From Candidatus Gallimonas faecavium (GTDB lineage: Bacteria; Bacillota; Clostridia; Christensenellales; Borkfalkiaceae), in assembly GCA_904391375.1 (NCBI GenBank), contig CAJFMF010000006.1, positions 1 through 34,238 on the forward strand: a stretch of 34,238 bases of DNA, given 5' to 3'. A program made the translations under genes and the position numbers. Positions 20,002-34,179 of this stretch are shown in pieces. Each line of letters opens with the position of its first letter. Within the stretch, counting starts at the first letter, position 1. The notes beneath the pieces are model-generated. The model worked only from the letters and a program-made list of their open reading frames with translations, did not search any database and was not told where the DNA came from.

Positions 20002-21018
20002 TCAGTCGTTGATGCCCTTCTGCTTTTCGTTTTCATACGGGGTATTGTAGAGTTCGGCGGGGTTGAGCTTGAAAACGGGCTTTCCGTTTGCGTCGAACCC
20101 GACTTTCAGGACGTGTGCGTGGCGGTTGTGGTCGTCCAGCGGATCGCCGACGATCTTTTCATAGTCGCGGAAGTGCAAAAGCGTGAGCACTTCGTCGTCA
20201 TCGCCGCGTACGAACGTGTTGTGGCCGGGGCCGTAGACCTTGAGCGCCGCGTCCGTTTTGAGAACGGGCCAGCGTTCCTTTTCCCAGCTTCTCGGATCGA
20301 GCAGGTCGGAATTTTCGTCCGCGCTCAACATCCCCAGACAGTAGCACGCGCCCGTCGCCGAGGCGGAATACGTCACATAGATCTTTCCCTTCGTCTCGGG
20401 GCAATGCAGAACGGCAGGCCCTTCGTTTACCCAGAATCCGCCGTCGCGTTCCCAGTCATAATCGGGCGAGGTGATGCGCACGAACACCGTCTTTAACTTG
20501 GTGGGCGTCTCCAGTTCGGCGATCAGAAGATCGGAAATGGGTTTCTCCGCCCGCGCACATCCGAATTTCTGCGCCCAGATCGCATACCACCTGCCCTTGT
20601 TCTCCAAAACCGTCATGTCAAGCGAGAAGTCGGTGAACGGGTAGGGATCGTTGGCGGCGGGCTCGATCGGAACGGCCTCGCCCCAGTCGTCCGTCATCGG
20701 GTCGTCTCCCTTGCAGATGAGCGCATAGGGGCGAATGTCCCAGACGTCCGGCACATGCCCCGCGGAAAAGTAAATGATCCACTTTCCCATGACATAGTGC
20801 AGCTCGGGCGCCCATATGTGCGAGGCAAGTGCTCCCGTCTCGTGCTTCTTCCATACCGTGCGCACGGGTGCGGTCGCAATGCCGTTCACCGTGTCCGCGC
20901 TGGAGAGCTCGATACGGTCATACAGCGGACAGGTCGCCGTAAAATAATATTTGCCGTTGTACTTGCACAGATAGGGGTCTGCTCGCTGCGGCAGAAGAGG
21001 AGAGAGGTAGGTTGTCAT
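20002..21018 (-). CDS. Glycoside hydrolase family 43 (arabinofuranosidase/xylosidase-like)
   Basis: 338 residues from ATG 21018. The ORF-track GTG at 21030 is rejected because GTGAGGAA, the ribosome binding site, lies there. Five-bladed propeller motifs of GH43: RADPYLCKYNGKYYFTAT near the N terminus (catalytic base Asp about 14), HIWAPELHY (about 66), DFSLDMTVLENKGRWYAIWA (pKa-modulating Asp about 133), VNEGPAVL (general acid Glu about 196) and YGPGHNTFV (about 267). Known family activities are removal of arabinose or xylose units from plant polysaccharides. There is no signal peptide, so it is probably cytoplasmic and works on imported oligosaccharides. It is transcribed alone from its own promoter and closed by a perfect terminator. 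The exact subfamily cannot be assigned by eye. Confidence 0.88.
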   Translation of the reverse strand: MTTYLSPLLPQRADPYLCKYNGKYYFTATCPLYDRIELSSADTVNGIATAPVRTVWKKHETGALASHIWAPELHYVMGKWIIYFSAGHVPDVWDIRPYALICKGDDPMTDDWGEAVPIEPAANDPYPFTDFSLDMTVLENKGRWYAIWAQKFGCARAEKPISDLLIAELETPTKLKTVFVRITSPDYDWERDGGFWVNEGPAVLHCPETKGKIYVTYSASATGACYCLGMLSADENSDLLDPRSWEKERWPVLKTDAALKVYGPGHNTFVRGDDDEVLTLLHFRDYEKIVGDPLDDHNRHAHVLKVGFDANGKPVFKLNPAELYNTPYENEKQKGIND

Positions 21019-21078
21019 AAAGTTCCTCACAAGATAGTTTTTTTCGGAATGCGCGCGGGGCGCATCCGTCCTGTCTTT

Positions 21079-21107
21079 ACAATACTACACTTTCTCGCCC
21101 TTGTCAA
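21079..21107 (-). promoter_or_regulatory. Promoter of the GH43 gene
   Basis: Reading the minus strand: TTGACA (21107-21102), 17 bp, TATTGT (21084-21079). The leader of about 55 bases contains a small hairpin ATGCGC-CCCGC-GCGCAT (21065-21049) and the ribosome binding site. Confidence 0.75.
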
Positions 21108-21121
21108 CGGGGTCGTGCAAA

Positions 21122-23695
21122 TTATTTGCGCAATTTTTTATACTTTTCCCAGGGGAGCAAGAAGAGATATACCCCGAGAATGACAAGCGCAAGCACCGTC
21201 AGGATGATGATGAGCGAAATGCGCAGAACTTCCGCATTGTCGCGGTCGAGCATGGCTTCCGTCACCACCGCGCTGTATGCGGGATCGCTCACGAGATATG
21301 CCGTGAATGTGCCGTCCTCATTTTCGGCAAGACGCACCTGGACGCGCTCCGTAACCGTCTGCTGTGTCCCGTCTTCCGCCGTGAACACAATGCCGTCCGC
21401 ATTCGCTTTGAGATAGGCGAACTGGTATTCCTCGCCCTCCGTGAGCGAGGCGGGAATGTCCGAAAGATAGGACGCGGGAACCCATCCGCGTACCGTTTCG
21501 CGCGTAACGCTGTCGTCATATTCGATCAGAGCATAGGTGCGGTCGGGCGCTGTAAACGTCCCGAGAAGCTGCACCGCCGTGCCGCGCGCAAGGTTATTTG
21601 TCGCGAGCGGCGGGATTCCCTCCGTCGGCATGGGCTCGAGGCAGGGCGCATATGCGGCGCATACCGCATTGGAAAGCCACCGATCGCCGCTCTGCTCGGT
21701 GAAGGTGCCTTCCCGCGCAAGGATCGACTGCGCCTTGTACAGGCGTGCCGTATAGCTTCCGTCCGCTTCGGGGAACACGACGAGCGCATAGCCGCCCGCG
21801 CCTTCCGACGTCTCTGCCAGCAGGATTCCGCGGCGCTCTTCCACCGATCGGCCGTATCCGCGATAGGGGAAATAGGCGCTTTCCGAGGTGCGGAATTCCT
21901 CCAGATCGGTGTCAATGCCGACCGAACGCGCCGCAACGGTCACAAGAAGACCTTCCGCTTCGTGCAGCGAGAACGTCATCGCGCGCGCGCCGTCTTCCGC
22001 GATCTCGCCCAGCGTCGGGATTCCGTACAACGGCCCCGGCTGTCCCTCCGTGCTCGCATGGCTGACCACGACATAGTCCCCGAAGTTGAAATAGACCGCG
22101 TCGTCTTCGTATCCGAGCGCAAAGGAGCGGGGTGCCGTCTCGCCGCCCGCCGCATAGACAAAATCGCCGCCGTCCACCGAGGCAAACAGGACGCCGTTGC
22201 GGTACATGTCTTTGCCTAAAAGATAATAGAGATTGCCCTCGAAGTCCGCTTTCAGCGAGGTCGCCCCCGATGGCACGGCGTATCCGAGATCGGTCCCTTC
22301 TCCGCCCGCAAGAAAGGCCTCTTCCGTGAAGGAATACGCATTTCCGCTCGCATAGGAGACGTACAGCGAACCGTAGATGTCGCACGCAAGCCCCGTGGGG
22401 ACGGCGCTTCCGACTTCGACCGTCTCACCGCCCACAACGCCGCGCGAGCCGTTGCTCTTGATGTAATAGGTCTCGCCGTACAGCACGGCAAGCCCCGCAA
22501 TGTTCGCCCCCGAGAGCTGTGCCGACGTGAACGCCGTCTCGCCCGCCGCGTAGTCGCAGACATACACCTGCGCGCCCGAGGCATAGGCAATGCGCGATCC
22601 GTCCGTCGCGACCAGCGTGGGAGAGGTCTCGCACGGGACATAGGAATAGCTGTGCGCGGCAAGATCGTACACGCTCACGCGCGCATTGTCGGCGTCCGCC
22701 GTCACCAGAAGATCGCCCGCCCGCGCCGAGTCGGAGGCGTCCGAAAGACGGTTCACCGAGTCCGAGGCCGCCGCGATCTCATAGTCGGTAAAGGCTGCGG
22801 CGTTCTCCGTCACGGCGATCTCATGCACCGACGTCCCGCGGATACAGTAAAAATTGCCGTTCTCATAGGTGAGCGCGGACACGCCGCTCAGCGTCGGATC
22901 GGAGGACAGACAGACAGGGGTATCGCCCACCGCCGTCTGTCTGCGGAAAAATCCCGCCGCCGAGGAAAAATACAGGTACGTCCCGTCCGAACACACCGAC
23001 GAGATCCCGAGCCGATCGTTGTAATCCGCAATGTCAAATCCGTTGTAGTCCACGAACATCCCGTTTCCGTCCGAGTAGTACACCGTCCCGCCGACCACGC
23101 AGTAGAGCATATTGTTCGCCCACGTCAGCCACGGCTCCGTACCCGTCGAAAGGGTTCCGAGCGACGTCCCGTCACTCGAAAGATCGTCCAGCGAACGGCG
23201 CGCAAGCGTCATCTGACTCCCCGCAATGACCGCCGTGTACAGCGTGTTTCCCACAATGAGAAAGGTCGAACAGTTGAGCGGGTCAATGCGCTGCGCCGTC
23301 CCCGCCGTGCAGTCGTACTGCCAGAAGGAATTGGACGTCCCGCGCTGCGTGAAATACAGCTGCTCCCCCGAAAACTGGATCTTCGTGATCGTTGCGTCTG
23401 CCGTGTATGAGAGATAGGTCTCATTCGCTCCCCGTTCGTACAGATAGAGCGTGTTCCCGTCGGCAACGGCAATGTATTTTTCCGAAAATGCAACGTCGGC
23501 AGGATTTTCCAGCGCAAGATATTGCTCATAGCTCGCGGGAAGGAACAGCGACGCGTTCTCGACCGTGAGAACGGCTGGCTGCGTCGGCGCCGTTTCGGCT
23601 GCGGTTGCGGTTGTTCTTTGCGGGATTACGCCCGCCACCGTCCCCATCGCAAGCAGAACGGCAAGCGCGGCGCCCGCACTCTTTCGTATCGTCAT
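21122..23695 (-). CDS. Signal-anchored, propeller-like extracellular protein with C-terminal membrane span
   Basis: 857 residues. There is an N-terminal signal peptide (MTIRKSAGAALAVLLAMGT, with ATAAET as a likely cleavage region). Residues about 60-600 consist of repeated short units such as VGNTLYTAVIAG, YENGNFYCIRG and FEGNLYYLLGKD, the pattern of beta-propeller proteins (DUF5050-like). Near residues 690-750 ARGTAVQLLGTF...YALIEYDD...VRGWVPASYLS looks like a bacterial SH3 domain. A single membrane span (SLIIILTVLALVILGVYLFL) is followed by the positive tail PWEKYKKLRK. The body would face outside, anchored at the C terminus. The function is not known; cell-wall or sugar binding is a guess. 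Its promoter is placed exactly for leaderless transcription. Confidence 0.8.
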   Translation of the reverse strand: MTIRKSAGAALAVLLAMGTVAGVIPQRTTATAAETAPTQPAVLTVENASLFLPASYEQYLALENPADVAFSEKYIAVADGNTLYLYERGANETYLSYTADATITKIQFSGEQLYFTQRGTSNSFWQYDCTAGTAQRIDPLNCSTFLIVGNTLYTAVIAGSQMTLARRSLDDLSSDGTSLGTLSTGTEPWLTWANNMLYCVVGGTVYYSDGNGMFVDYNGFDIADYNDRLGISSVCSDGTYLYFSSAAGFFRRQTAVGDTPVCLSSDPTLSGVSALTYENGNFYCIRGTSVHEIAVTENAAAFTDYEIAAASDSVNRLSDASDSARAGDLLVTADADNARVSVYDLAAHSYSYVPCETSPTLVATDGSRIAYASGAQVYVCDYAAGETAFTSAQLSGANIAGLAVLYGETYYIKSNGSRGVVGGETVEVGSAVPTGLACDIYGSLYVSYASGNAYSFTEEAFLAGGEGTDLGYAVPSGATSLKADFEGNLYYLLGKDMYRNGVLFASVDGGDFVYAAGGETAPRSFALGYEDDAVYFNFGDYVVVSHASTEGQPGPLYGIPTLGEIAEDGARAMTFSLHEAEGLLVTVAARSVGIDTDLEEFRTSESAYFPYRGYGRSVEERRGILLAETSEGAGGYALVVFPEADGSYTARLYKAQSILAREGTFTEQSGDRWLSNAVCAAYAPCLEPMPTEGIPPLATNNLARGTAVQLLGTFTAPDRTYALIEYDDSVTRETVRGWVPASYLSDIPASLTEGEEYQFAYLKANADGIVFTAEDGTQQTVTERVQVRLAENEDGTFTAYLVSDPAYSAVVTEAMLDRDNAEVLRISLIIILTVLALVILGVYLFLLPWEKYKKLRK

Positions 23696-23701
23696 GCTCC
23701 C

Positions 23702-23730
23702 ATTATAACACGCGCGCGCGAAAAATACAA
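23702..23730 (-). promoter_or_regulatory. Promoter of the propeller surface-protein gene, +1 at the ATG
   Basis: Minus strand: TTGTAT (23730-23725), 17 bp containing a (CG)5 run, TGT then TATAAT (23707-23702), and six bases later the ATG at 23695. Initiation seven bases after the -10 would fall on the A of the ATG. Confidence 0.8.
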
Positions 23731-23747
23731 TTCTTCATCGCATTCTT

Positions 23748-23783
23748 CCCGAAAAAACTTTTCGGGCCTTTTTTTGCCCGAAA
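23748..23783 (+). terminator. Terminator-like hairpin with alternative pairing
   Basis: CCCGAAAA-AAC-TTTTCGGG (23748-23766) is followed by CCTTTTTTT on the + strand. The same TTCGGGC block can instead pair with GCCCGAA (23776-23782) across the T-tract. Incoming transcripts from either side could be stopped here. No gene lies immediately upstream on the + strand. Confidence 0.55.
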
Positions 23784-23900
23784 TTCGCCTTTTCCCGCGT
23801 TTGTCCGTCGGAAACAGCCGAATGATGGGATTTGACAGGGGGCGCGGAAGGGCAGGACAGCGGGAAGGGCCCGAACGGGAAATAAAGGGCGGGGGAGGCG

Positions 23901-23977
23901 CGGAGAGGCGAGGTGCGGAGAGGCGTGACGCGGAGAGGGGGAGGGCGCGGAGAGAGAAGGCACGGAGAAATGCAAAA
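23901..23977 (+). repeat. Five ~15-bp CGGAGAGG tandem repeats inside a 300-base purine tract
   Basis: CGGAGA units start at 23901, 23916, 23931, 23948 and 23963 (steps 15, 15, 17 and 15). They lie within 23830-24140, where the + strand is almost free of T. No ribosome binding site, promoter or gene is seen in this stretch. The minus-strand ORF across it is Pro/Ser/Arg only. Confidence 0.75.
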
Positions 23978-24203
23978 GGGGGCGTAGGAAAGGAGCGAGA
24001 AGAAACACGATAAGGGCGAGCTCAGGAAAGAGGGTAACGAGGGGACGGGAAAAGAGGAGGGGGCGGAAAACGAGGGAGGACGGTCGGCTCAAAGAGGGAT
24101 CGGGCAGGAAACGAGAGCGGCGGACAAGGGGACGCTTAAAAAGAGCATTGACGAAAACAATCAAATTATTTTGGCATACAGGCACCCATCTGGCAACATA
24201 AAA

Positions 24204-25502: not shown

Positions 25503-26951
25503 TTGCCGAATGACAACGAATTATCGCTGAAACTGCGTGCCGTGGAAAAAGAGCTCGCGCGCAGAAGGGCGTCCGATCATCTCGCCCGCTACAATACGGG
25601 CCGAAAAAAACATAAAAAACAGCTTGCCTTTCACAAGTGTAAAAAACGCAATCGCTGGGTGTTCGGCGGAAACCGCTCGGGCAAGACGGAGTGCGGCGCG
25701 GTAGAGGCCGTCTGGATGGCCCGCGGCATTCACCCGTATCGGAAAAACCGCAAAGACGTGTTCGGCTGGGTGGTCTCGCCCACGCTACAGGTACAGCGGG
25801 ACGTCGCACAGAAAAAAATCCTCTACTACCTGCGCCCCGACTGGATCGCCGATATCGTCATGGTGAGCGGCAGAAAGGACAATCCCTCCGCGGGCATCGT
25901 CGATCAGATCGTCGTCAAAAACGTGTTCGGCGGAACGAGCGTCATCGGCTTCAAGAGCTGCGATCAGGGCAGAGAGCGCTTTCAGGGAAGCTCGCTCGAC
26001 TTCGTGTGGTTCGACGAGGAACCGCCCCGCGACATCTACGAGGAATGCCTCATGCGCGTCCTCGACAAGGAAGGGGACATCTTCGGCACCATGACGCCCC
26101 TCAAAGGCCTGACCTTCGTGTATGAGGAGATCTACCTCAACCGCGGCGAAAATCCCGAAGTCTGGTACGAATTCATGGAATGGGGCGACAATCCCTTTCT
26201 CTCCAAAAAAGAGATCGCCATGCTCTCCCAAAGCCTTGATCCCGCCACCCTCGAATCGCGCCGCTACGGCCGCTTTGCCGCACGCGAAGGCCTCGTCTAT
26301 CCCGAGTTCGACGAACGCGTCCATGTCATCGAACCCTTTCCCGTCCCCCCCGAATGGCAGGCAGGCATCGCCATCGACCCCGGCCTTAAAAACCCGCTTT
26401 CGGCTCATTTTTATGCCGTCGACTGGGACGGAAATGTCTACGTCATCGCCGAACATTATGCGGCGGGTCACGATATCGACTACCACGCTCACGCCATTTT
26501 GGAACTCAGCGCCCGCCTCGGCTGGAAACGTGATGCCCGCGGACGCGTGGAGGCGCTCATAGACTCCGCGGCTTCGCAACGCACCCTCGCGGCCGAAAAA
26601 TCGGTGTCGGAACTGTTCGCCGAACGCGGCATCCTCGCCGATATGCACGTCGACAAAGATCTCTTTACGGGCATCGAGCGCGTCAAGAGTTACCTCAATC
26701 GCGAGAACGGATTGCCCGATCTGTATGTCTTTTCGGGTTGTACCAATATGATCCGCGAATTCAAAAGCTACTTCTGGGGAAGCGGCGATACGCCCGTCAA
26801 ACGCGACGACCACGCAATGGACGAACTGCGCTACTTCCTCATGAGCCGACCGCGCCCCGTGCGCGAGGGAGAGACTCCCGGTCCCATTACCCGCGACAAG
26901 GAACGCCGCATCCGCGCTCTCCTGCGCGCCAGACGGACGGGCAGACATTGA
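25503..26951 (+). CDS. Phage terminase large subunit
   Basis: 482 residues from a TTG start; GGAGGGGGAG lies about 5 bases upstream and no ATG fits. ATPase domain: Walker A GGNRSGKT (about residues 55-62) after RWVF, and Walker B LDFVWFDEEPP (about 169-179) with the catalytic Glu pair. RNase-H-like nuclease domain: AIDPG (about 290, metal Asp), ALIDSAASQR (about 350) and DHAMDELRY (about 436-444, last metal Asp). All expected catalytic residues are present, so the motor looks functional. Role: ATP-driven DNA packaging into proheads through the portal, and DNA cutting. It is the first gene of the structural operon, divergent from the anchored protein. A 313-base repeat-bearing spacer, unusual for phage late genes, separates it from the next gene. 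Confidence 0.93.
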   Translation: MPNDNELSLKLRAVEKELARRRASDHLARYNTGRKKHKKQLAFHKCKKRNRWVFGGNRSGKTECGAVEAVWMARGIHPYRKNRKDVFGWVVSPTLQVQRDVAQKKILYYLRPDWIADIVMVSGRKDNPSAGIVDQIVVKNVFGGTSVIGFKSCDQGRERFQGSSLDFVWFDEEPPRDIYEECLMRVLDKEGDIFGTMTPLKGLTFVYEEIYLNRGENPEVWYEFMEWGDNPFLSKKEIAMLSQSLDPATLESRRYGRFAAREGLVYPEFDERVHVIEPFPVPPEWQAGIAIDPGLKNPLSAHFYAVDWDGNVYVIAEHYAAGHDIDYHAHAILELSARLGWKRDARGRVEALIDSAASQRTLAAEKSVSELFAERGILADMHVDKDLFTGIERVKSYLNRENGLPDLYVFSGCTNMIREFKSYFWGSGDTPVKRDDHAMDELRYFLMSRPRPVREGETPGPITRDKERRIRALLRARRTGRH

Positions 26952-27048
26952 ACGGGTTTTTGCGCCCCCTTGCCCGAAGCGAGGGGAAAGTCGCAAAAAG
27001 CACGGGCGGCGTCAGACAAAACAGGACACAGGGGGTTCCAAGAGGCGG

Positions 27049-27200
27049 GCGGAATGTTGCCCCGCGGGTCGTTGTGTACGGGCGGAAAGTATCCCGAGAG
27101 CGTTGCGCGGTGGGAAAGTGTACCCGTGGGACGCTGCGCAGGGGCGAGAGAGCGCCGCGCGAGCGGAAAGTGTGCCGCGGGACGTCGTTGCGCGGGGGCA
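27049..27200 (+). repeat. Degenerate GCGGAAAGTG...GGGACG repeats between terminase and the small-terminase-like gene
   Basis: About four imperfect copies of GCGGAAAGTGTGCCGCGGGACGTTGCGC are visible. GGAA/GGAAAG cores lie at about 27050, 27085, 27114 and 27166. The spacer 26952-27250 (about 300 bases) has no gene with a ribosome binding site. Confidence 0.6.
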
Positions 27201-27250
27201 AAAGCGCGCCGCAGGATGCCGCACAAATTTTTATGCAAGGAGGACGGTCT

Positions 27251-27268
27251 GTGCAAGACAGCGTATGA
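27251..27268 (+). CDS. Five-codon leader ORF coupled to the small-terminase-like gene
   Basis: AAGGAGGA (27237-27244) sits six bases before GTG CAA GAC AGC GTA TGA. Its stop overlaps the next gene's ATG as ATGA. The ribosome binding site is too far (about 20 bases) to serve the ATG at 27265 directly, so translation may restart there. Inferred from spacing only. Confidence 0.4.
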   Translation: MQDSV

Positions 27269-27537
27269 TGCAGGATGACAAAGTGAGAGACGCGGTACTC
27301 AAAGTCGCCCTCGGCTTTCAGGTGGAGGAGGTGACGGAGGAGTATGACGCGCGGGACGGGGAACTGAAACTCGTCAAACGGCGGGAGACCCGAAAGGACA
27401 TTCCGCCCGACTTAAAGGCAGTCAGGCTTCTGCTGGAGGGGACGGACTATTCCGCGCTCTCCGACGAGGAGCTGGAGGCGGAGCGCGAAAAACTCATCGG
27501 CGCGCTCGCTGCGGAGCAGAAGGAGAAACCATCATGA
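27265..27537 (+). CDS. Terminase small subunit-like protein lacking the DNA-binding head
   Basis: 90 residues (MMQDDKVRDAVLKVALGFQV). The segment AVLKVALGFQVEEVTEEYD...GELKLVKRRETRKDIPPDLKAVRLLLEG matches the C-terminal half of many phage small terminases, where a 'ALxRAxGY..EEV' helix leads through a charged hairpin to 'PPDxxAxxxLL'. The usual N-terminal helix-turn-helix that reads pac/cos DNA is absent. The upstream in-frame extension to 27103 is repeat sequence, not that domain. Usually this gene precedes the large subunit; here it follows it. LSDEELEAEREKLIGALAAEQ at the end is a coil. It overlaps the portal gene by ATGA. It may help assemble the motor, with DNA recognition lost or moved to another protein. 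Confidence 0.6.
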   Translation: MMQDDKVRDAVLKVALGFQVEEVTEEYDARDGELKLVKRRETRKDIPPDLKAVRLLLEGTDYSALSDEELEAEREKLIGALAAEQKEKPS

Positions 27538-29390
27538 CAGAGAAAGAAAAACTCAGGGAACGGCAGGAAAAACAGCGCGTCGAGGCGCTCGTGCGGGACG
27601 TCCGTTCCGACTTCGAGCGGCGGCGCAGGGCCCGCAGGACGCTCGAACGGGGCTGGGAGCTCAACATGAACTTTGTGAGCGGCAACCAGTTCTGCGACAT
27701 CAATCCCGCGGGGGAACTCGAGGAAGAGGCCGCGACGTTCTACTGGCAGTCGCGCCGCTGTTTCAATCACATCGCGCCCACGCTGGATACGCGTCTGGCG
27801 CGGCTCGCCAAGGTGCGCCCGTCGCTCGAAGTGCGCGCCTTCTCGGACGCCGACGACGACATGAAGACCGCGCGGCTTTGTTCCAACATCCTGCGCGCGG
27901 TCAAAAACCGCATCGACCTCGACGGCATTGTCTCGGCCGCGACCCTCTGGTCGGAGACGTGCGGCACGTCGTTTTACAAGATCGTGTGGAACCACGAGGA
28001 CGGAAAGGTCATCGGCGCCGACGCCGAAGGGCATTCGGTGCGCGAAGGCGACGTCAACGTCGTCGCGCTCTCGCCCTTTGAAGTCTACCCCGATGCGCTG
28101 ACCGCCGAGAGCATGCAGGAGGTCAACAGCCTCATCCACGCCAAGGCCGTCCCCGTGTCCTATCTTCGCGATAAATTCGGCGTGGAAGTGCCCGGCACTT
28201 CCATCTCCGATTTCCCGCTCGCACCCTATGCTTCGGCGAGCGGCTGGAAGCGTCCCGCGGACGGGAAAGACCGGCCCGTCCTCGAGGATGCGGTCATTCT
28301 CATCGAACGGTATACCCGCCCCGACGGCGAACATCCCAAGGGGCGGCTGGAAATCGTGGCGGCTGACAAACTGTTGTACGAGGGAGACCTTCCCTACGAG
28401 AACGGCGACCGCGGCGAACGCGTCCTGCCCTTCGTGCGGCAGACGTGCATCGCGCTCCCGGGGGCTTTCTTCGGGACGAGCGTCGTCGATCGCATGATCC
28501 CGCTTCAGCGGGCGTACAATGCGGTCAGAAACCGCAAGCACGAGTTTTTGAATCGGCTCTCGACGGGGGTCATCGCCGTGGAGGACGGCTCGGTGGACGC
28601 CGAGGAACTTGCGGAGGACGGGCTGTATCCCGGGAAGGTGCTCGTCTACCGCAGGGGATCGGAAAAACCGGGCTTCCTCGATTGCGGCAGCATTCCCGCA
28701 GAGTTCGAGAAAGAGGAGGAGCGGCTCGCGAATGAGTTCGTGCTCGTCTCGGGCATGAGCGAGATCTCGCGCAATTCCGCGAACCCGACGAACGTCACGT
28801 CGGCAACCGGACTGCAGCTCCTCCTCGACCAGGACACCAACCGGATGCAGCTGAGCGCGGAGAGCGTCGGACGTGCGGTCAGAGAGGCGGGAAAGCAGAT
28901 CCTGCACCTCTACAAGCAGTTCGCCGGCGCGCGCCGCGTGCTGCGCATGACGGGGACGGGCGGGGATACCGAACTCTTTGCGTTCTCACAGAGCGACATC
29001 TCGGCGGACGACGTTCAGTTCGAGCCGGGATTCGAGCGGACGGCGGATCAGAAAAAGGAGGACATCCTTTCCCTCCTTTCGCTCGGGCTCCTGCAGGATG
29101 CGGAGGGGAAACTCTCGGACGATACCAGAAACCGCGTGCTGGAAGCCATCGGGTTCGGTTCGTTCGAGAACGCGCGGGACATCTCGCATCTCCACCTCAA
29201 AAAGGCGGAACGTGAGAACCTCCTGCTGGCGCAGACCGATGTGGAGGCGGACGCCTACGATGATCACGCCCTGCATCGCACCGAACACGTCCGGGCATTG
29301 CTCTCGGGCGCGGAAAAAGATGAGGCGGTCCGCGCAAGGATCATGCGCCACCTTGCGTCGCACCGCGAAAAAGAAGGAGGAAAAGTATGA
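27534..29390 (+). CDS. Phage portal protein (short-tail, P22-type)
   Basis: 618 residues, the size of P22-like portals. The N-terminal helical clip/wing region is EKLRERQEKQRVEALVRDV, then WELNMNFVSGNQFCDI and RRCFNHIAPTLDTRLARLAKVRP, a common portal pattern. The stem/core part includes QRAYNAVRNRKHEFLNRLSTG and, later, NVTSATGLQLLLDQDTNRMQ, followed by helices ending in AEKDEAVRARIMRHLASHREKEGGK. The dodecameric portal forms the vertex through which the terminase pumps DNA and to which connector proteins attach. AAGGAGAAACC precedes the ATG; the start overlaps the previous gene (ATGA) and the stop overlaps the scaffold gene (ATGA). No frameshift or internal stop is seen, so it looks maintained. 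Confidence 0.85.
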   Translation: MTEKEKLRERQEKQRVEALVRDVRSDFERRRRARRTLERGWELNMNFVSGNQFCDINPAGELEEEAATFYWQSRRCFNHIAPTLDTRLARLAKVRPSLEVRAFSDADDDMKTARLCSNILRAVKNRIDLDGIVSAATLWSETCGTSFYKIVWNHEDGKVIGADAEGHSVREGDVNVVALSPFEVYPDALTAESMQEVNSLIHAKAVPVSYLRDKFGVEVPGTSISDFPLAPYASASGWKRPADGKDRPVLEDAVILIERYTRPDGEHPKGRLEIVAADKLLYEGDLPYENGDRGERVLPFVRQTCIALPGAFFGTSVVDRMIPLQRAYNAVRNRKHEFLNRLSTGVIAVEDGSVDAEELAEDGLYPGKVLVYRRGSEKPGFLDCGSIPAEFEKEEERLANEFVLVSGMSEISRNSANPTNVTSATGLQLLLDQDTNRMQLSAESVGRAVREAGKQILHLYKQFAGARRVLRMTGTGGDTELFAFSQSDISADDVQFEPGFERTADQKKEDILSLLSLGLLQDAEGKLSDDTRNRVLEAIGFGSFENARDISHLHLKKAERENLLLAQTDVEADAYDDHALHRTEHVRALLSGAEKDEAVRARIMRHLASHREKEGGKV

Positions 29391-29815
29391 CGGAAGAGGA
29401 GAACAAGGCGGAGAAACCCGCGGAGGCCGCAGTGCCCAACCTCGGAAAATTTCAGAACGTGGATGCCCTCATGCGCGCCTATCAGGAGCTGGAGGCGGAA
29501 TTCACCCGTCGCAGTCAACGCCTGAAGGCTCTTGAGGCAGCTGCAAAGCAGCCTGCGCAGGAGCAGGGCTCGCCCGCGACGGCGCCCGAAACGCCCGTCG
29601 CGGAGGCGGACAGCGAAGCGCTGCTGCGCGCCGTCAGAGGGAACGAAGAGGTATGCGCGCGCATCGTGGGGGAATACCTCGCGTCGCTCTCGGGCGTACC
29701 CCTTCTGGCGGGGACGGGCGCAGGAATCGTCGCACCCGTCGAGAGGGCCACGACGCTCAAACAGGCCGGCGCTCTCGCGCTCGGCTATCTCAAACATCGT
29801 AAAAACGGAGGTTAA
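29387..29815 (+). CDS. Probable scaffolding protein
   Basis: 142 residues, acidic at the N terminus (MTEEENKAEKPAEAA). LGKFQNVDALMRAYQELEAEFTRRSQRLKAL (read in part) is the pattern seen in short clostridial phage scaffolds, where an amphipathic coil is preceded by 'GKF.....L..AY..LE.EFT'. A Pro/Ala/Glu linker (QPAQEQGSPATAPETPVAEA) leads to a helical C terminus with LGYLKHRKNGG, the basic end expected to contact capsid subunits. Its place between portal and capsid genes supports the role. It overlaps the portal gene by four bases. Function is inferred from position and composition. Confidence 0.68.
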   Translation: MTEEENKAEKPAEAAVPNLGKFQNVDALMRAYQELEAEFTRRSQRLKALEAAAKQPAQEQGSPATAPETPVAEADSEALLRAVRGNEEVCARIVGEYLASLSGVPLLAGTGAGIVAPVERATTLKQAGALALGYLKHRKNGG

Positions 29816-29820
29816 TTTTT

Positions 29821-30975
29821 ATGGTTACGACCACTTCGGCAGACGGCGTCCTGAAGTCTTATTACCTGGATGCCGTGGCAGAACAGCTCAACAAGACGGC
29901 AAATCCCTTGCTTGCCGCCATCGAACAGACGTCCTCGGACGTCTGGGGAAAGGACGTCCGCAAGGCCGCCGTGTACGGCGTCCACGGCGGCGTCGGCGCG
30001 GGCACCGAGGACGGAGCCCTGCCCGCTACGTCGGGTGGCGGCTATGCCCAGCTCACCGCAACGCTCAAAAATCTCTACGGCAGGATCGAGATCTCCGATA
30101 AGGCCGTGCGCGCTTCCCGCGGCGACGAGGGCGCGTTCGTCGACCTGCTCAATACCGAAATGGAACAGCTCATCAAGAGCTCGTCCTTCAACTTCGGCAG
30201 AATGCTCTTCGGCGACGGGAGCGGAAAACTCGGCACCGTCAGCAGCGTTTCCGGTACCACTTACACTATGGACAGCGTCCGCAACTTTGCGGTCGGCATG
30301 ATCGTCGACATCATCGGCTCCGGCGGCGAAAGCGTCGCAACGGCACGCACCGTCACGGGCGTCGACTATGCGAACGGCACCATCACGCTCTCGGGCGCTT
30401 CCGCCACGAACGCGGGAAACTGCGGCGTCTACGTCCAGAACTCGCGCGATCAGGAGATCACCGGCCTCGGCGCCATCTTCTCTTCGTCCGAGACCCTCTA
30501 CGGGCTCACGCGTGCCGATCATCCCTGGCTCAATCCCGTCAAGGTCGAGGTCGAAGGCGCCATCACCGAAAATGCCGTCCAGAAGGCCATCGACCTCGTC
30601 GAGGAGAGCGCCGGAAGCAAGGTGAACTTCATCGTCTGCTCGTGGGGCGTACGGCGCGCTCTCTTCAAGGTGCTCTCCGCCTATCGCCAGATCGATACCG
30701 TCGAGCTCGCAGGCGGCGCAAAGGCCATCACCTTCAACGGCATTCCCGTCGTCGCCGACCGCTTCTGCCCTTCGGGAACGATGTACCTTCTGAACACCGA
30801 CGACTTCCGCCTGCACCAGCTCTGCGACTGGCAGTGGCTGGAAGGGGAGAACGGCAGAATCCTCGCACAGGTCCCCGGCAAGCCCGTCTATACGGCGACG
30901 CTCGTCAAGTACGCCGAACTCCTGTGCAGCCGTCCCTGCGGACAGGCCGTCCTCACGGGCATCACCGAAGAATAA
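29821..30975 (+). CDS. Phage major capsid protein (probable HK97 fold)
   Basis: 384 residues, GGAGG 9 bases before the ATG. The sequence runs VLKSYYLDAVAEQLN, NPLLAAIEQTS, a glycine-rich loop (GVHGGVGAGTEDGALP), LKNLYGRIEISDKAVRAS, EMEQLIKSSSFNFGRMLFGD, a 120-residue beta-rich domain, then VNFIVCSWGVRRALFKVLS and AITFNGIPVVADRFCPSGTMYLLN. The last block (surface strand, 'G.PV..D...P.G...L') is the typical end of HK97-like capsid proteins. No separate protease gene is present, so maturation must be protease-free or use other proteases. It is the highest-output gene expected in the operon. Confidence 0.85.
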   Translation: MVTTTSADGVLKSYYLDAVAEQLNKTANPLLAAIEQTSSDVWGKDVRKAAVYGVHGGVGAGTEDGALPATSGGGYAQLTATLKNLYGRIEISDKAVRASRGDEGAFVDLLNTEMEQLIKSSSFNFGRMLFGDGSGKLGTVSSVSGTTYTMDSVRNFAVGMIVDIIGSGGESVATARTVTGVDYANGTITLSGASATNAGNCGVYVQNSRDQEITGLGAIFSSSETLYGLTRADHPWLNPVKVEVEGAITENAVQKAIDLVEESAGSKVNFIVCSWGVRRALFKVLSAYRQIDTVELAGGAKAITFNGIPVVADRFCPSGTMYLLNTDDFRLHQLCDWQWLEGENGRILAQVPGKPVYTATLVKYAELLCSRPCGQAVLTGITEE

Positions 30976-30991
30976 GCAAAGGAGGGACGGT

Positions 30992-31555
30992 ATGCTCATC
31001 AAAGACGTACTCATTCTGGCCGCAGAGGAGCTCGGACGGGCGGACTTCGTCCCTCTCATCGAGCAGGCCGCCGCATCGTCTGCCGCGCCCGACGGCGAGA
31101 TCGCGACGCTGCTGCGCTGCTATCAGCTCGTCGAAAACGAAGTCGCCCTCGACCATTTTCCCCTCCGCGCAGAGGAGTCCTTTCTTCCCGCGGATGACGC
31201 CGTGCTCTTTACGCGCTTTTCCAAGGCACCCGTGGACGTGCTCGACGTCCGCGATGCCTGCGGGCGGCGCGTGGCGTTCACCGTCTATCCTTCCCGTCTC
31301 CTCCTGCCGCGCGGAACGGGCGAGGTGACCGTCGTCTATTCCTATGCCCCGACGTGCGCGGAGATCGGCGACCAGACGGCGTTCTCCGACAAGATCTCGG
31401 CGCGCCTGCTCTCCTACGGGGTGGCGTGCGAGTACCTGCTCGCGGGCGGACGGTACGCTGAAGCAGCCGTCTGGGATGAGAAATTCCATGCCGCCCTCAG
31501 CGCCGCAGGCCTGGAGCGCAGGAAACTCTCCGTTCCCGCAAGGAGGTGGGTATGA
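30992..31555 (+). CDS. Head-to-tail connector / head completion protein (P22 gp4-like position)
   Basis: 187 residues, AAAGGAGGG eight bases before the ATG. MLIKDVLILAAEELGR, then LLRCYQLVENEVALDHFPL are helices like those of gp6/gp15/gp4-type connectors that ring the portal. The middle part, DVLDVRDACGRRVAFTVYPSRLLLPRGTGEVTVVYSYAP (read in parts), is beta-rich. The C terminus has SARLLSYGVACEYLLAGGRYAEAAVWDEKFHAAL, a helix pair common in clostridial phage connectors. Its location after the capsid gene and before a propeller protein supports the call. It overlaps the next gene by ATGA. The exact family cannot be named without a search. Confidence 0.65.
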   Translation: MLIKDVLILAAEELGRADFVPLIEQAAASSAAPDGEIATLLRCYQLVENEVALDHFPLRAEESFLPADDAVLFTRFSKAPVDVLDVRDACGRRVAFTVYPSRLLLPRGTGEVTVVYSYAPTCAEIGDQTAFSDKISARLLSYGVACEYLLAGGRYAEAAVWDEKFHAALSAAGLERRKLSVPARRWV

Positions 31556-32835
31556 GCGTTCCTTCCAACAGACGGCACATCGTGCGCTTCAAAGCCGCCT
31601 CCATGCGGGCGGGCGAAGGACGCGTGCGCGCCCTCCGCCTCGATCATCTGCGGGAGGAAAAAGGTGCGCTCGTGTGTGCGGAAGGGGAGAGCACGGCGAC
31701 AACACTTCCCTCGCTCACCACCGACATCTGGTGCGTCGGGGACCGACTTCTCGCCTATCGTGCCTCCCGCAAGACGCTCACCGTGCTCATGAACAACCGT
31801 ATGTACCTTGTCGGTGAGGAGGTCATCCGCGTCGCGGAGATCGTCGAATCGAGCGGGGCAAAGAGCATCTTTGTCATCTGCCCCGACGGACTTTACCTGT
31901 TCTCCAATGTCGGCGTTTCGACGACCAAGTACGACCCTGCCCCCACGACGACCAACCTCGTTCTGTTCCACGAGCGCGTCATCGGGGCGGCGGGACAGCA
32001 GATGCGCTATACCGCTCCTTCGGACATCCGAAGCTGGGTGAACTACGGCGAACAGACTGCGGGTTGGTGCGACCTTCTCCCCACGGGCGGGGATGTCGTG
32101 GATGTCGTCGGAATGCGCGGAAATGTGTACTTCCTGCGCGAACACGGTATCACCTGTCTGACGGGCTATGTGGACGTGTATAACTTCCGACTGGAGGATA
32201 TTCCGTTCGGCATGGGACGCATTGTCAGCCATGCGGCGGTGATCGGCGAAAAGGCGTATTTTTTCACCGAGTGCGGCCTGTGCTGCTTCGACGGGTCGCG
32301 GACGGAACGCGCGCCCGGCGCCATGGACGAAGAGATCGATCTGTCCAACATCCTGCGCGTGCAGATGGCGGGGGAGCGGATCTTTGCCGCTTCCGTCGGA
32401 CTGACGGACGGAAGCCAGGCGCTCTATCTCTATGAGCCTGCACGCGAGCGCGGCCGCTTCGTCCGGCGCAACTTTGAGAACTTCACGGCGGGAGACGACA
32501 TCTATCTCATGCGCGGCACCGCGGCGTATCGTCTGACGGGGCGCGCGCTTCCCTCCGGCGGTTCCTGCTGTCTGACGGCAACGTTTGCCCTCGGCGATCT
32601 CGGCGAGGGGGAAAAGCGGCTGGAAGGGGTGTTCCTCGACGGAAAGGGCAGCTTCGAGGTCGAGGCGGTCGGCGAGGACGGCATCGCGCGTTCGCGCACG
32701 GGGGAAGCAGGGCAATGGATCGATTTTCCCGCAAGCGTTCGCGGGGAAACCGTGACATTGCGCATTCAATCCTCCGATGTTGATCTCTCGATCGGGGAAA
32801 TTCTTCTTCGGGTTCGGCGGGAGGACAGAGTATGA
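31552..32835 (+). CDS. Beta-propeller-like neck/stabilisation protein (P22 gp10-like)
   Basis: 427 residues from ATG 31552, set by AAGGAGG five bases upstream; GTG 31546 is part of that site. The body is a series of repeated beta units: WCVGDRLLAYRASRKTL, KSIFVICPDGLYLFSN, VVGMRGNVYFLREHGIT, GEKAYFFTECGLCCFDG, GERIFAASVGLTDG. This is the pattern of a six- or seven-bladed propeller, as in the P22 gp10 'packaged DNA stabilisation' family, which plugs the portal after packaging. The C-terminal about 100 residues (ALGDLGEGEKRLEGVFLDG, VTLRIQSSDVDLSIGEILLRV) form a separate beta-sandwich. It is coupled by four-base overlaps on both sides. A receptor-binding function is the alternative. Confidence 0.6.
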   Translation: MSVPSNRRHIVRFKAASMRAGEGRVRALRLDHLREEKGALVCAEGESTATTLPSLTTDIWCVGDRLLAYRASRKTLTVLMNNRMYLVGEEVIRVAEIVESSGAKSIFVICPDGLYLFSNVGVSTTKYDPAPTTTNLVLFHERVIGAAGQQMRYTAPSDIRSWVNYGEQTAGWCDLLPTGGDVVDVVGMRGNVYFLREHGITCLTGYVDVYNFRLEDIPFGMGRIVSHAAVIGEKAYFFTECGLCCFDGSRTERAPGAMDEEIDLSNILRVQMAGERIFAASVGLTDGSQALYLYEPARERGRFVRRNFENFTAGDDIYLMRGTAAYRLTGRALPSGGSCCLTATFALGDLGEGEKRLEGVFLDGKGSFEVEAVGEDGIARSRTGEAGQWIDFPASVRGETVTLRIQSSDVDLSIGEILLRVRREDRV

Positions 32836-33323
32836 CCATTGACATCATTGATCTGACCGATCCCGAATACGCCGACCTCAACGCCGTACAGCTCTCGATG
32901 GTGCGCGTGGCGCAGGGGAAAAAGGACGACATTCTCGCCCGCGCGGAAGAGGAAAAGACGCAGCTCAAAAATCAGCTCATCGCCAACAATTTCGCGCGTT
33001 CCTCCGTCTTTGAATACACCGAACAGCGCATCGACGATGCGGCGACGGCAGAGGTGGAGGTCGTCAAAGAGGACCTTCTCTATCAGCTCGCGTATGAATC
33101 GCTCGGCACCGAGGGGAATGAGATGGGGCCTTACCGCTATCCCGAGAATCCCAATTACAACCTCACGGCTTCCCAGCGGTTCCTCGTCGTGCGCAACTAC
33201 TACATGGACGTGACGGACGATCCCAATGCCCGTTTGCAGTCCTATTCGATGGATTCCCTCGCGCGGACCTATCTCGGCGAATTCTATTCGACGCTCTATG
33301 ACCTTCTCGCCTCGTATTGCTGA
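32832..33323 (+). CDS. Conserved-looking protein of unknown function, last gene of the virion operon
   Basis: 163 residues that I cannot assign to a family. The N-terminal third is helical and likely coiled coil (AQGKKDDILARAEEEKTQLK, EVVKEDLLYQLAYESLG). The second half is dense in aromatic and proline residues (GPYRYPENPNYNLTASQRF, RNYYMDVTDDPNARLQSYS, YLGEFYSTLYDLL) and looks well folded. The protein ends in a single cysteine (ASYC). There is no signal peptide or membrane span. It starts inside the previous stop (ATGA), so it is made with the propeller protein. Its location suggests a neck or tip protein, a plug, or an ejection protein. Confidence 0.7.
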   Translation: MTIDIIDLTDPEYADLNAVQLSMVRVAQGKKDDILARAEEEKTQLKNQLIANNFARSSVFEYTEQRIDDAATAEVEVVKEDLLYQLAYESLGTEGNEMGPYRYPENPNYNLTASQRFLVVRNYYMDVTDDPNARLQSYSMDSLARTYLGEFYSTLYDLLASYC

Positions 33324-33364
33324 GCGGGAGCGTTTCTCCTCGTAATGTCAGGAGAACCCCGCTC
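33322..33364 (+). other. Large stem-loop at the stop codon of the virion operon
   Basis: GAGCGGG pairs with CCCGCTC and, after an internal loop, TTCTCCT with AGGAGAA around CGTAATGTC. There is no T-tract. With the terminator 60 bases on, it makes a structured 3' UTR of about 135 bases. Confidence 0.6.
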
Positions 33365-33423
33365 GCAGAAGGCGGGCGCATACGGCATGCACGGTAAGCC
33401 ATCAAAACCGTTTTCAAACGGCG

Positions 33424-33457
33424 CAGACCCCGAAAGTTTCGGGGTCTGTTGTTTTAT
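33424..33457 (+). terminator. Terminator of the virion operon
   Basis: CAGACCCCGA and TCGGGGTCTG, with extra A-T pairs toward a small loop, followed by TTGTTTTATT. Confidence 0.87.
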
Positions 33458-33482
33458 TCTGAAAAATCCGCCCGATTTTATG

Positions 33483-33511
33483 TTGACAACCGCATGGAAA
33501 TATAGTATAAT
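33483..33511 (+). promoter_or_regulatory. Consensus promoter of the tRNA gene
   Basis: TTGACA (33483-33488), 17 bp, TATAAT (33506-33511): a perfect match in both boxes, as expected for a stable RNA gene. Confidence 0.93.
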
Positions 33512-33523
33512 CACATTACCGAT

Positions 33524-33599
33524 GGGGTTATAGCGCAGTTGGTAGCGCGTTTGAATGGCATTCAAAAGGTCAGGGGTTCGACTCCCCTTAGCTCCACCA
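33524..33599 (+). tRNA. tRNA-Ala (anticodon GGC)
   Basis: 76 bases that fold as a cloverleaf. Acceptor GGGGTTA/TAGCTCC has two G-T pairs, the D-arm is GCGC/GCGC, the anticodon stem is TTTGA/TCAAA with loop ATGGCAT, the T-arm is AGGGG/CCCCT with TTCGACT, and CCA is encoded. The anticodon GGC reads GCC alanine codons, which this GC-rich genome uses often. The 3' half is overlapped on the other strand by the recombinase remnant. Confidence 0.96.
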
Positions 33600-34179
33600 A
33601 ACGCGACGTATACGCACACTCTGCGTTTATGTCAGAAAAAGAAACCGCTTTGTCGGTTTCTTTTTCATTTTCGGGCATTTTTTGGGCAATTTCGCCGTCG
33701 TCGCCGTGTCCGTCGGGATAATCGGGGAAAAGCAGGTTTAAGAGCAGTTCGCCCTGTTGCCCGCCTTTTAGGTGGAACAACACTTTCATTTTATCGTCGT
33801 ACAGTATCACCCTATAAATGAACGTGTCTATCAGGTCTTTGCGGCTCTTGGTCTTGGAATAGTCAAGTGTGCGGAAGTGCGACAACCCTTTGCGAATGTC
33901 GGCGTAACTGTAATTTATCTGCATTGCCTTTTCGTTGGCGATTGTGTCTTGCAGTTCCTTGTTTTCGTTCTCTAACTTCTCAATTTGCGACAGAATGGTG
34001 TCGGCAATCTTGCCGAGCATTAACGCCTGCATAAGATTGTTTATCGCCTTTTGGTTTTCCGCGACAAGGTTTTCAAGCCGTTTTATCTCGGTGTCGTTCT
34101 GCTCCGACTGGATAAGCAAATAAGTTTCTGCGGCAACAAGGTCAATAAATTCGTCGGTCAAAACGCCGTATTTAACTGC
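33562..34179 (-). pseudogene. C-terminal remnant of a serine site-specific recombinase
   Basis: About 206 codons are open, beginning just after an in-frame TAG (34180-34182). The first usable codon in the track is TTG 34161. Features match the C-terminal part of large serine recombinases: a coiled coil (IKRLENLVAENQKAINNLMQ, SQIEKLENENKELQDTI), then DIRKGLSHFR and RKDLIDTFIYRVILYDDKMK followed by FHLKGG, the classic 'IDxFIxxVxLYDDK' block. The catalytic N-terminal domain (with its serine) and zinc-ribbon region are absent before the stop. The last residues (LVELRGVEPLTF) are only the tRNA-Ala gene read backwards. The DNA is visibly more A/T-rich than its neighbours, consistent with foreign origin. 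Whether more of the gene lies past the window edge, split by an insertion, cannot be seen. Confidence 0.75.
33635..33666. terminator. Bidirectional terminator between tRNA-Ala and the recombinase remnant
   Basis: GAAAAAGAAACCG and CGGTTTCTTTTTC, a perfect 13-bp stem with loop CTTTGT. It has T-rich and A-rich flanks so it can act on both strands; on the + strand it is 36 bases after the tRNA. Confidence 0.85.

Follow-up and report, generated by a model that had tools for sequence, protein, structure and literature searches.

Leaderless mRNAs are read by ribosomes that load directly onto the 5'-terminal AUG, either as 70S ribosomes or as 30S subunits with IF2. In Actinobacteria and Deinococcus-Thermus, ~20–40% of genes are leaderless (PMC3160421); in the same study, Zheng et al. 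2011 found the leaderless (TA-led) genes of Firmicutes to be concentrated in Lactobacillales and Mycoplasma. Transcription start maps of Clostridia and their relatives record few of them. In C. phytofermentans, 4% of sites are potentially leaderless, and the genes concerned generally keep an upstream start and a typical ribosome-binding site (PMC5171806); in C. autoethanogenum the figure is about 2% (PMC6873888). C. difficile has 15 potentially leaderless genes (PMC7438776), and Sporomusa seven (PMC12456013). The maps of cultured Clostridia leave open whether close relatives differ. A literature search that paired leaderless genes with Christensenellales found nothing relevant; the leaderless mRNA is a known kind of message, of which we found no earlier report for this lineage.

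The window—the whole stretch of 34,238 nucleotides that was analysed, from Candidatus Gallimonas faecavium—encodes an 857-residue protein whose gene is very probably transcribed leaderless, by way of a promoter of the sigma-70 type that is fused to its ATG. The first-pass annotation had proposed such a promoter, TTGTAT followed by a 17-bp spacer, a −10 element, GGGAGC and ATG, and exactly this layout is present on the minus strand at 23730–23693, with a TG in front of the TATAAT. The features are as follows.

23760–23783, minus: terminator-like hairpin TTTCGGGC-AAAAAAAG-GCCCGAAA, followed by T6 at 23757–23752
23735–23737, minus: in-frame stop TGA upstream of the ATG
23725–23730, minus: −35 element TTGTAT, its TTG invariant in 30/30 orthologs
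23708–23724, minus: promoter spacer TTTTCGCGCGCGCGTGT, 17 bp, with a conserved alternating CG tract at 23720–23711 and, at 23710–23709, the TG that extends the −10
23702–23707, minus: −10 element TATAAT, invariant in 30/30 orthologs
23696–23701, minus: discriminator GGGAGC, the 6 bases between −10 and ATG; letters vary between species; predicted not to be transcribed
23693–23695, minus: start codon ATG, predicted from the spacing to carry +1 on its A, with the pyrimidine C at −1
21122–23695, minus: 857-residue secreted, C-terminally membrane-anchored beta-propeller-type protein, with signal peptide, beta-rich body and C-terminal TM helix (~821–846)

The −35 element matches TTGACA at three of six positions, a poor fit to the consensus, and for this reason it is missed by a consensus promoter scan. 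The −10 element stands ~10 bp before the start codon, the above-chance placement by which leaderless genes are recognized, and the geometry agrees with the earlier proposal that, at standard spacing, the first A of the start codon is +1; the exact position is inferred from the −10 spacing of 6 and from the pyrimidine–A initiator signature described below. RNA polymerase would recognize the extended −10 together with the weak −35, and would begin transcription on that A. A message starting there has no 5' leader, and hence no Shine–Dalgarno (SD) site, and by analogy with the leaderless mRNAs of other bacteria the ribosome would load directly on its terminal AUG. A minor share of transcripts with leaders of 1–5 nt is possible.

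Comparison with orthologs bears this out. Upstream regions were read in 30 species of the genus, the window included, and the promoter core—TTG at −35, TG, and TATAAT—is unchanged in all of them. TATAAT lies 6 bases from the ATG in 22 of the 30, 8 in five, 9 in two and 10 in one, and the bases that make up this distance carry low information at most positions even where the length of 6 is held. An SD 4-mer more than 2 nt from the ATG occurs in none of the 30 orthologs, and at 1–2 nt in only two. In an alignment of six species, conservation sets in abruptly at the −35 and there is none upstream. With the core kept, the intervening letters variable and no usable SD, selection appears to couple the promoter to the start codon. 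The spacings of 8–10 in eight orthologs mean that a strictly zero-length leader is not universal; leaders of 1–5 nt are likely in those species, with ~2–4 nt expected.

The GGGAG of the discriminator deserves a word. It is 1 nt from the ATG, whereas SD-led genes carry a GGAGG-like block 5–10 nt before the start, and GGAG is found there in only two of the 30 orthologs. We regard it as incidental, in keeping with the annotation's view that this sole purine block lies outside the message; a role as ribosome site is ruled out by its lack of conservation.

Nor is the gene alone in its own genome (1.64 Mb, 87.7% complete, from a genus with GC of 0.58–0.59). TATAATN3-9ATG occurs there at 88 sites and its reversed form at 10. 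Of the 88 sites, 35 are spaced at exactly 6, compared with 8.8 on average for each of the remaining spacings (p ~4e-9). A pyrimidine occupies −1 at 34 of these 35 sites compared with 122 of 176 SD-led ATGs (Fisher p 2e-4), and is, to judge from these sequences, a transcription-initiator signature. The fuller form TGNTATAATN5YATG is present 13 times, never reversed and once at spacing 16; when 199 other genomes of the phylum are set beside it, none reaches this count, and second place goes to a larger genome with 10. A chance origin of the arrangement is ruled out by the excess at spacing 6 over reversed patterns and other spacings.

Gene-start statistics, drawn from a 427-kb portion of this genome and samples of two others, with genes called by a simple codon-usage caller, give the same picture. 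In the 427 kb, the distance from TATAAT to the start peaks at 6, is nearly empty from 11 to 25, and peaks again at 26–36. SD blocks in this genome peak 6–8 nt before the start, from which it follows that SD use dominates and most genes are SD-led; the leaderless share, as a rough estimate from sequence, would be ~2–5% of genes, the G034 sample being at the low end. Members of the spacing-6 class include UvrC, MnmE, AroA, diaminopimelate decarboxylase, RsmG, endonuclease III (Nth), PrmA, RuvX and a CDF transporter, among others, and many have TTGACA-like −35 boxes 17 bp upstream. NCBIfam profiles begin near residue 1 of several spacing-6 starts (Nth 3/3, TrmL 1/1, LepA 3/1, TruA 3/2, PrmA 3/1, MnmE 2/3), and on these matches the sites sit on real gene starts.

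The same geometry recurs across the genus, for which 41 genomes were sampled, the named relatives being uncultured MAGs. TATAAT-6-ATG occurs 1496 times in the 41 genomes, or 1397 times in 40 without G003, versus 75 reversed over all 41; TATAAT-6-GTG occurs 152 times versus the same 75. In six of the genomes there are 21–40 matches per genome at spacing 6 versus 3–7 at spacing 16. Read from these counts, the spacing-6 class appears ATG-specific, close to ATG-only, with AUG preferred over GUG and UUG, and the excess of ATG over GTG agrees with the need of leaderless translation for an AUG, a requirement cited in PMC5622118. Leaderless placement is retained in orthologs of several other genes of the class, those in L028, L007 and L087 among them. 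Beyond the genus, LepA, TruA, Lgt and others have the spacing-6 geometry in G064, a genome of GC 0.35 that belongs to another family of the order, and the excess at spacing 6 is strong in four families (f1, f6, f16 and f32) and absent in two (f4 and f23).

Not every match is a leaderless start. Some within the genus are incidental, such as that in the gyrB-type gene of G004, where an in-frame ATG falls 6 bases after TATAAT and relatives use an SD leader. The 99 matches of G003, left out of the lower total, come mainly from a dispersed palindromic repeat that contains TATAATAAGGACATGTTTCGAC and is present in dozens of copies, on contigs L201, L205, L207 and L215, for example. In pattern counts this repeat mimics leaderless starts, and it must therefore be masked.

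The protein itself is something of an orphan. No Pfam or NCBIfam family was found for it, and matches occur in 35 of 61 genomes searched, all within its own genus and in some relatives (G012, G003) more than one in tandem. Its ATG opens a signal peptide, MTIRKSAGAALAVLLAMG, read from the sequence; this, along with the N-termini of the orthologs, marks the ATG at 23695 as very probably the true N-terminus. In the AlphaFold model (mean pLDDT 85) the body is almost entirely beta, and residues 821–846 form a C-terminal helix. Foldseek returns beta-propeller proteins, PorZ first, with low whole-chain TM-scores, and a sequence search against solved structures gave one match, at chance level. A candidate SH3-like segment can be read near 705–745. 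It is likely to be a binding or sensing protein anchored at the surface.

Other accounts of the start of this gene have to be weighed. Polymerase might begin on a G of GGGAG instead, giving an ultra-short leader of 2–6 nt and near-leaderless translation; the discriminator, with purines at five of its six positions, would allow this, and the orthologs with spacings of 8–10 imply leaders of ~2–4 nt. We think it unlikely here, given the pyrimidine–A at −1/+1 in 34 of the 35 genomic spacing-6 sites and the spacing of exactly 6 kept in 22 of 30 orthologs despite varying letters. The start might also lie far upstream, with the ATG used in a longer leader by non-SD initiation and the TATAAT promoter secondary. 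There is a weak promoter-like site, TTGCCA-17-CAAAAT with TG, at 24196–24168, ~470 nt upstream, but between it and the gene stands the terminator-like hairpin, which on its sequence would block read-through ahead of the −35. Hairpin and T6 end at 23752, 21 bp before TTGTAT, and this leaves little space for an upstream transcription start. The upstream sequence, moreover, is unconserved, in contrast to the promoter core, and we consider the idea very improbable. The annotation had named an upstream start with a normal ribosome site as the result that would overturn its reading, and such a start finds no support: none of the orthologs has an SD at usable spacing, conservation stops at the −35, and the hairpin is just upstream. 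Also upstream of the gene, at 23840–24000 of the window, is a purine-rich repetitive stretch of GCGGAGAGGCG-like units on the plus strand.

The annotation's other reservation, a real start codon further downstream, would turn the short stretch before it into a leader. An in-frame ATG at codon 17 (Met17) is available in the window. Initiation there would, however, cost the protein most of the signal peptide that the first ATG opens, and the orthologs share that first ATG, a mostly basic N-terminus, and a near-fixed distance from the −10; we put the chance of it close to nil. In the other direction, the 13 codons that separate the ATG from the upstream in-frame TGA (23737–23735) contain no ATG, GTG or TTG. 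Leaderless transcription from the fused promoter, as first proposed, is favored by promoter, spacing, ortholog conservation, lack of an SD, hairpin and genome-wide class alike, to the extent that sequence can speak to it.

One feature of the promoter is peculiar. The alternating CGCGCGCGCG tract of its spacer (window 23711–23720, minus) is conserved in most orthologs, and in five genomes the same CG promoter core precedes gyrB-type genes (L117, L135, L136, L138, L146), genes that are mostly leadered, with an SD visible in some. Across the genus, CGCGCGCG is enriched close to TATAAT: among the matches listed, 89 of 127 lie within 9 bp of it and 32 at exactly 3 bp, a TG accompanying 24 of the 32. 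In the genome of the window, the majority of the other leaderless promoters have no CG spacer. Conceivably the tract acts as a switch, either responsive to supercoiling (and possibly Z-forming) or bound by a regulator, and by way of one shared promoter core links both gyrase and the leaderless gene for the surface protein to DNA topology, but we offer this as a doubtful speculation.

Just downstream of the gene, at 20002–21030 on the minus strand, is a GH43-family glycoside hydrolase with a promoter-like site of its own, TTGACA-17-TATTGT, at 21107–21079. An Rfam scan of the window returned tRNA only. Positions 25503–34161 form a prophage-like stretch, which includes:

25503–26951, plus: terminase large subunit
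27534–29390, plus: P22/SU10-like portal
29821–30975, plus: major head protein
33524–33596, plus: tRNA
33562–34161, minus: integrase-like fragment at the contig end

What comparative genomics adds is a standing set of a few dozen leaderless genes, of rigid promoter-to-AUG geometry, maintained beside ordinary SD genes in a clostridial lineage that is uncultured. For work on leaderless initiation in Gram-positive anaerobes, the spacing-6 class supplies clean test genes. There is a practical side, too: leaderless starts may be misplaced by gene finders that count on a ribosome site.

That leaderless genes are uncommon in Firmicutes, as the annotation had remarked, holds for the published maps, but within this genus they form a regular minority class. 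The genes described here resemble the TA-led genes of Zheng et al. (PMC3160421), which have a −10 ~10 bp before the start and no SD, and in Firmicutes a TATAAT with, in some genomes, a TG peak; they differ from those Firmicutes cases in belonging to a clostridial order that is uncultured and, within this genus, to GC-rich genomes (0.58–0.59). With the maps of C. phytofermentans, C. difficile, Sporomusa and C. autoethanogenum they have in common a low single-digit share of genes, but unlike in C. phytofermentans the −10 box occupies the position of the ribosome-binding site, and different species preserve this arrangement. They share with the leaderless mRNAs of Actinobacteria and Deinococcus-Thermus a promoter fused to the start codon, and differ from them in making up roughly 2–5% of genes and in being close to ATG-only.
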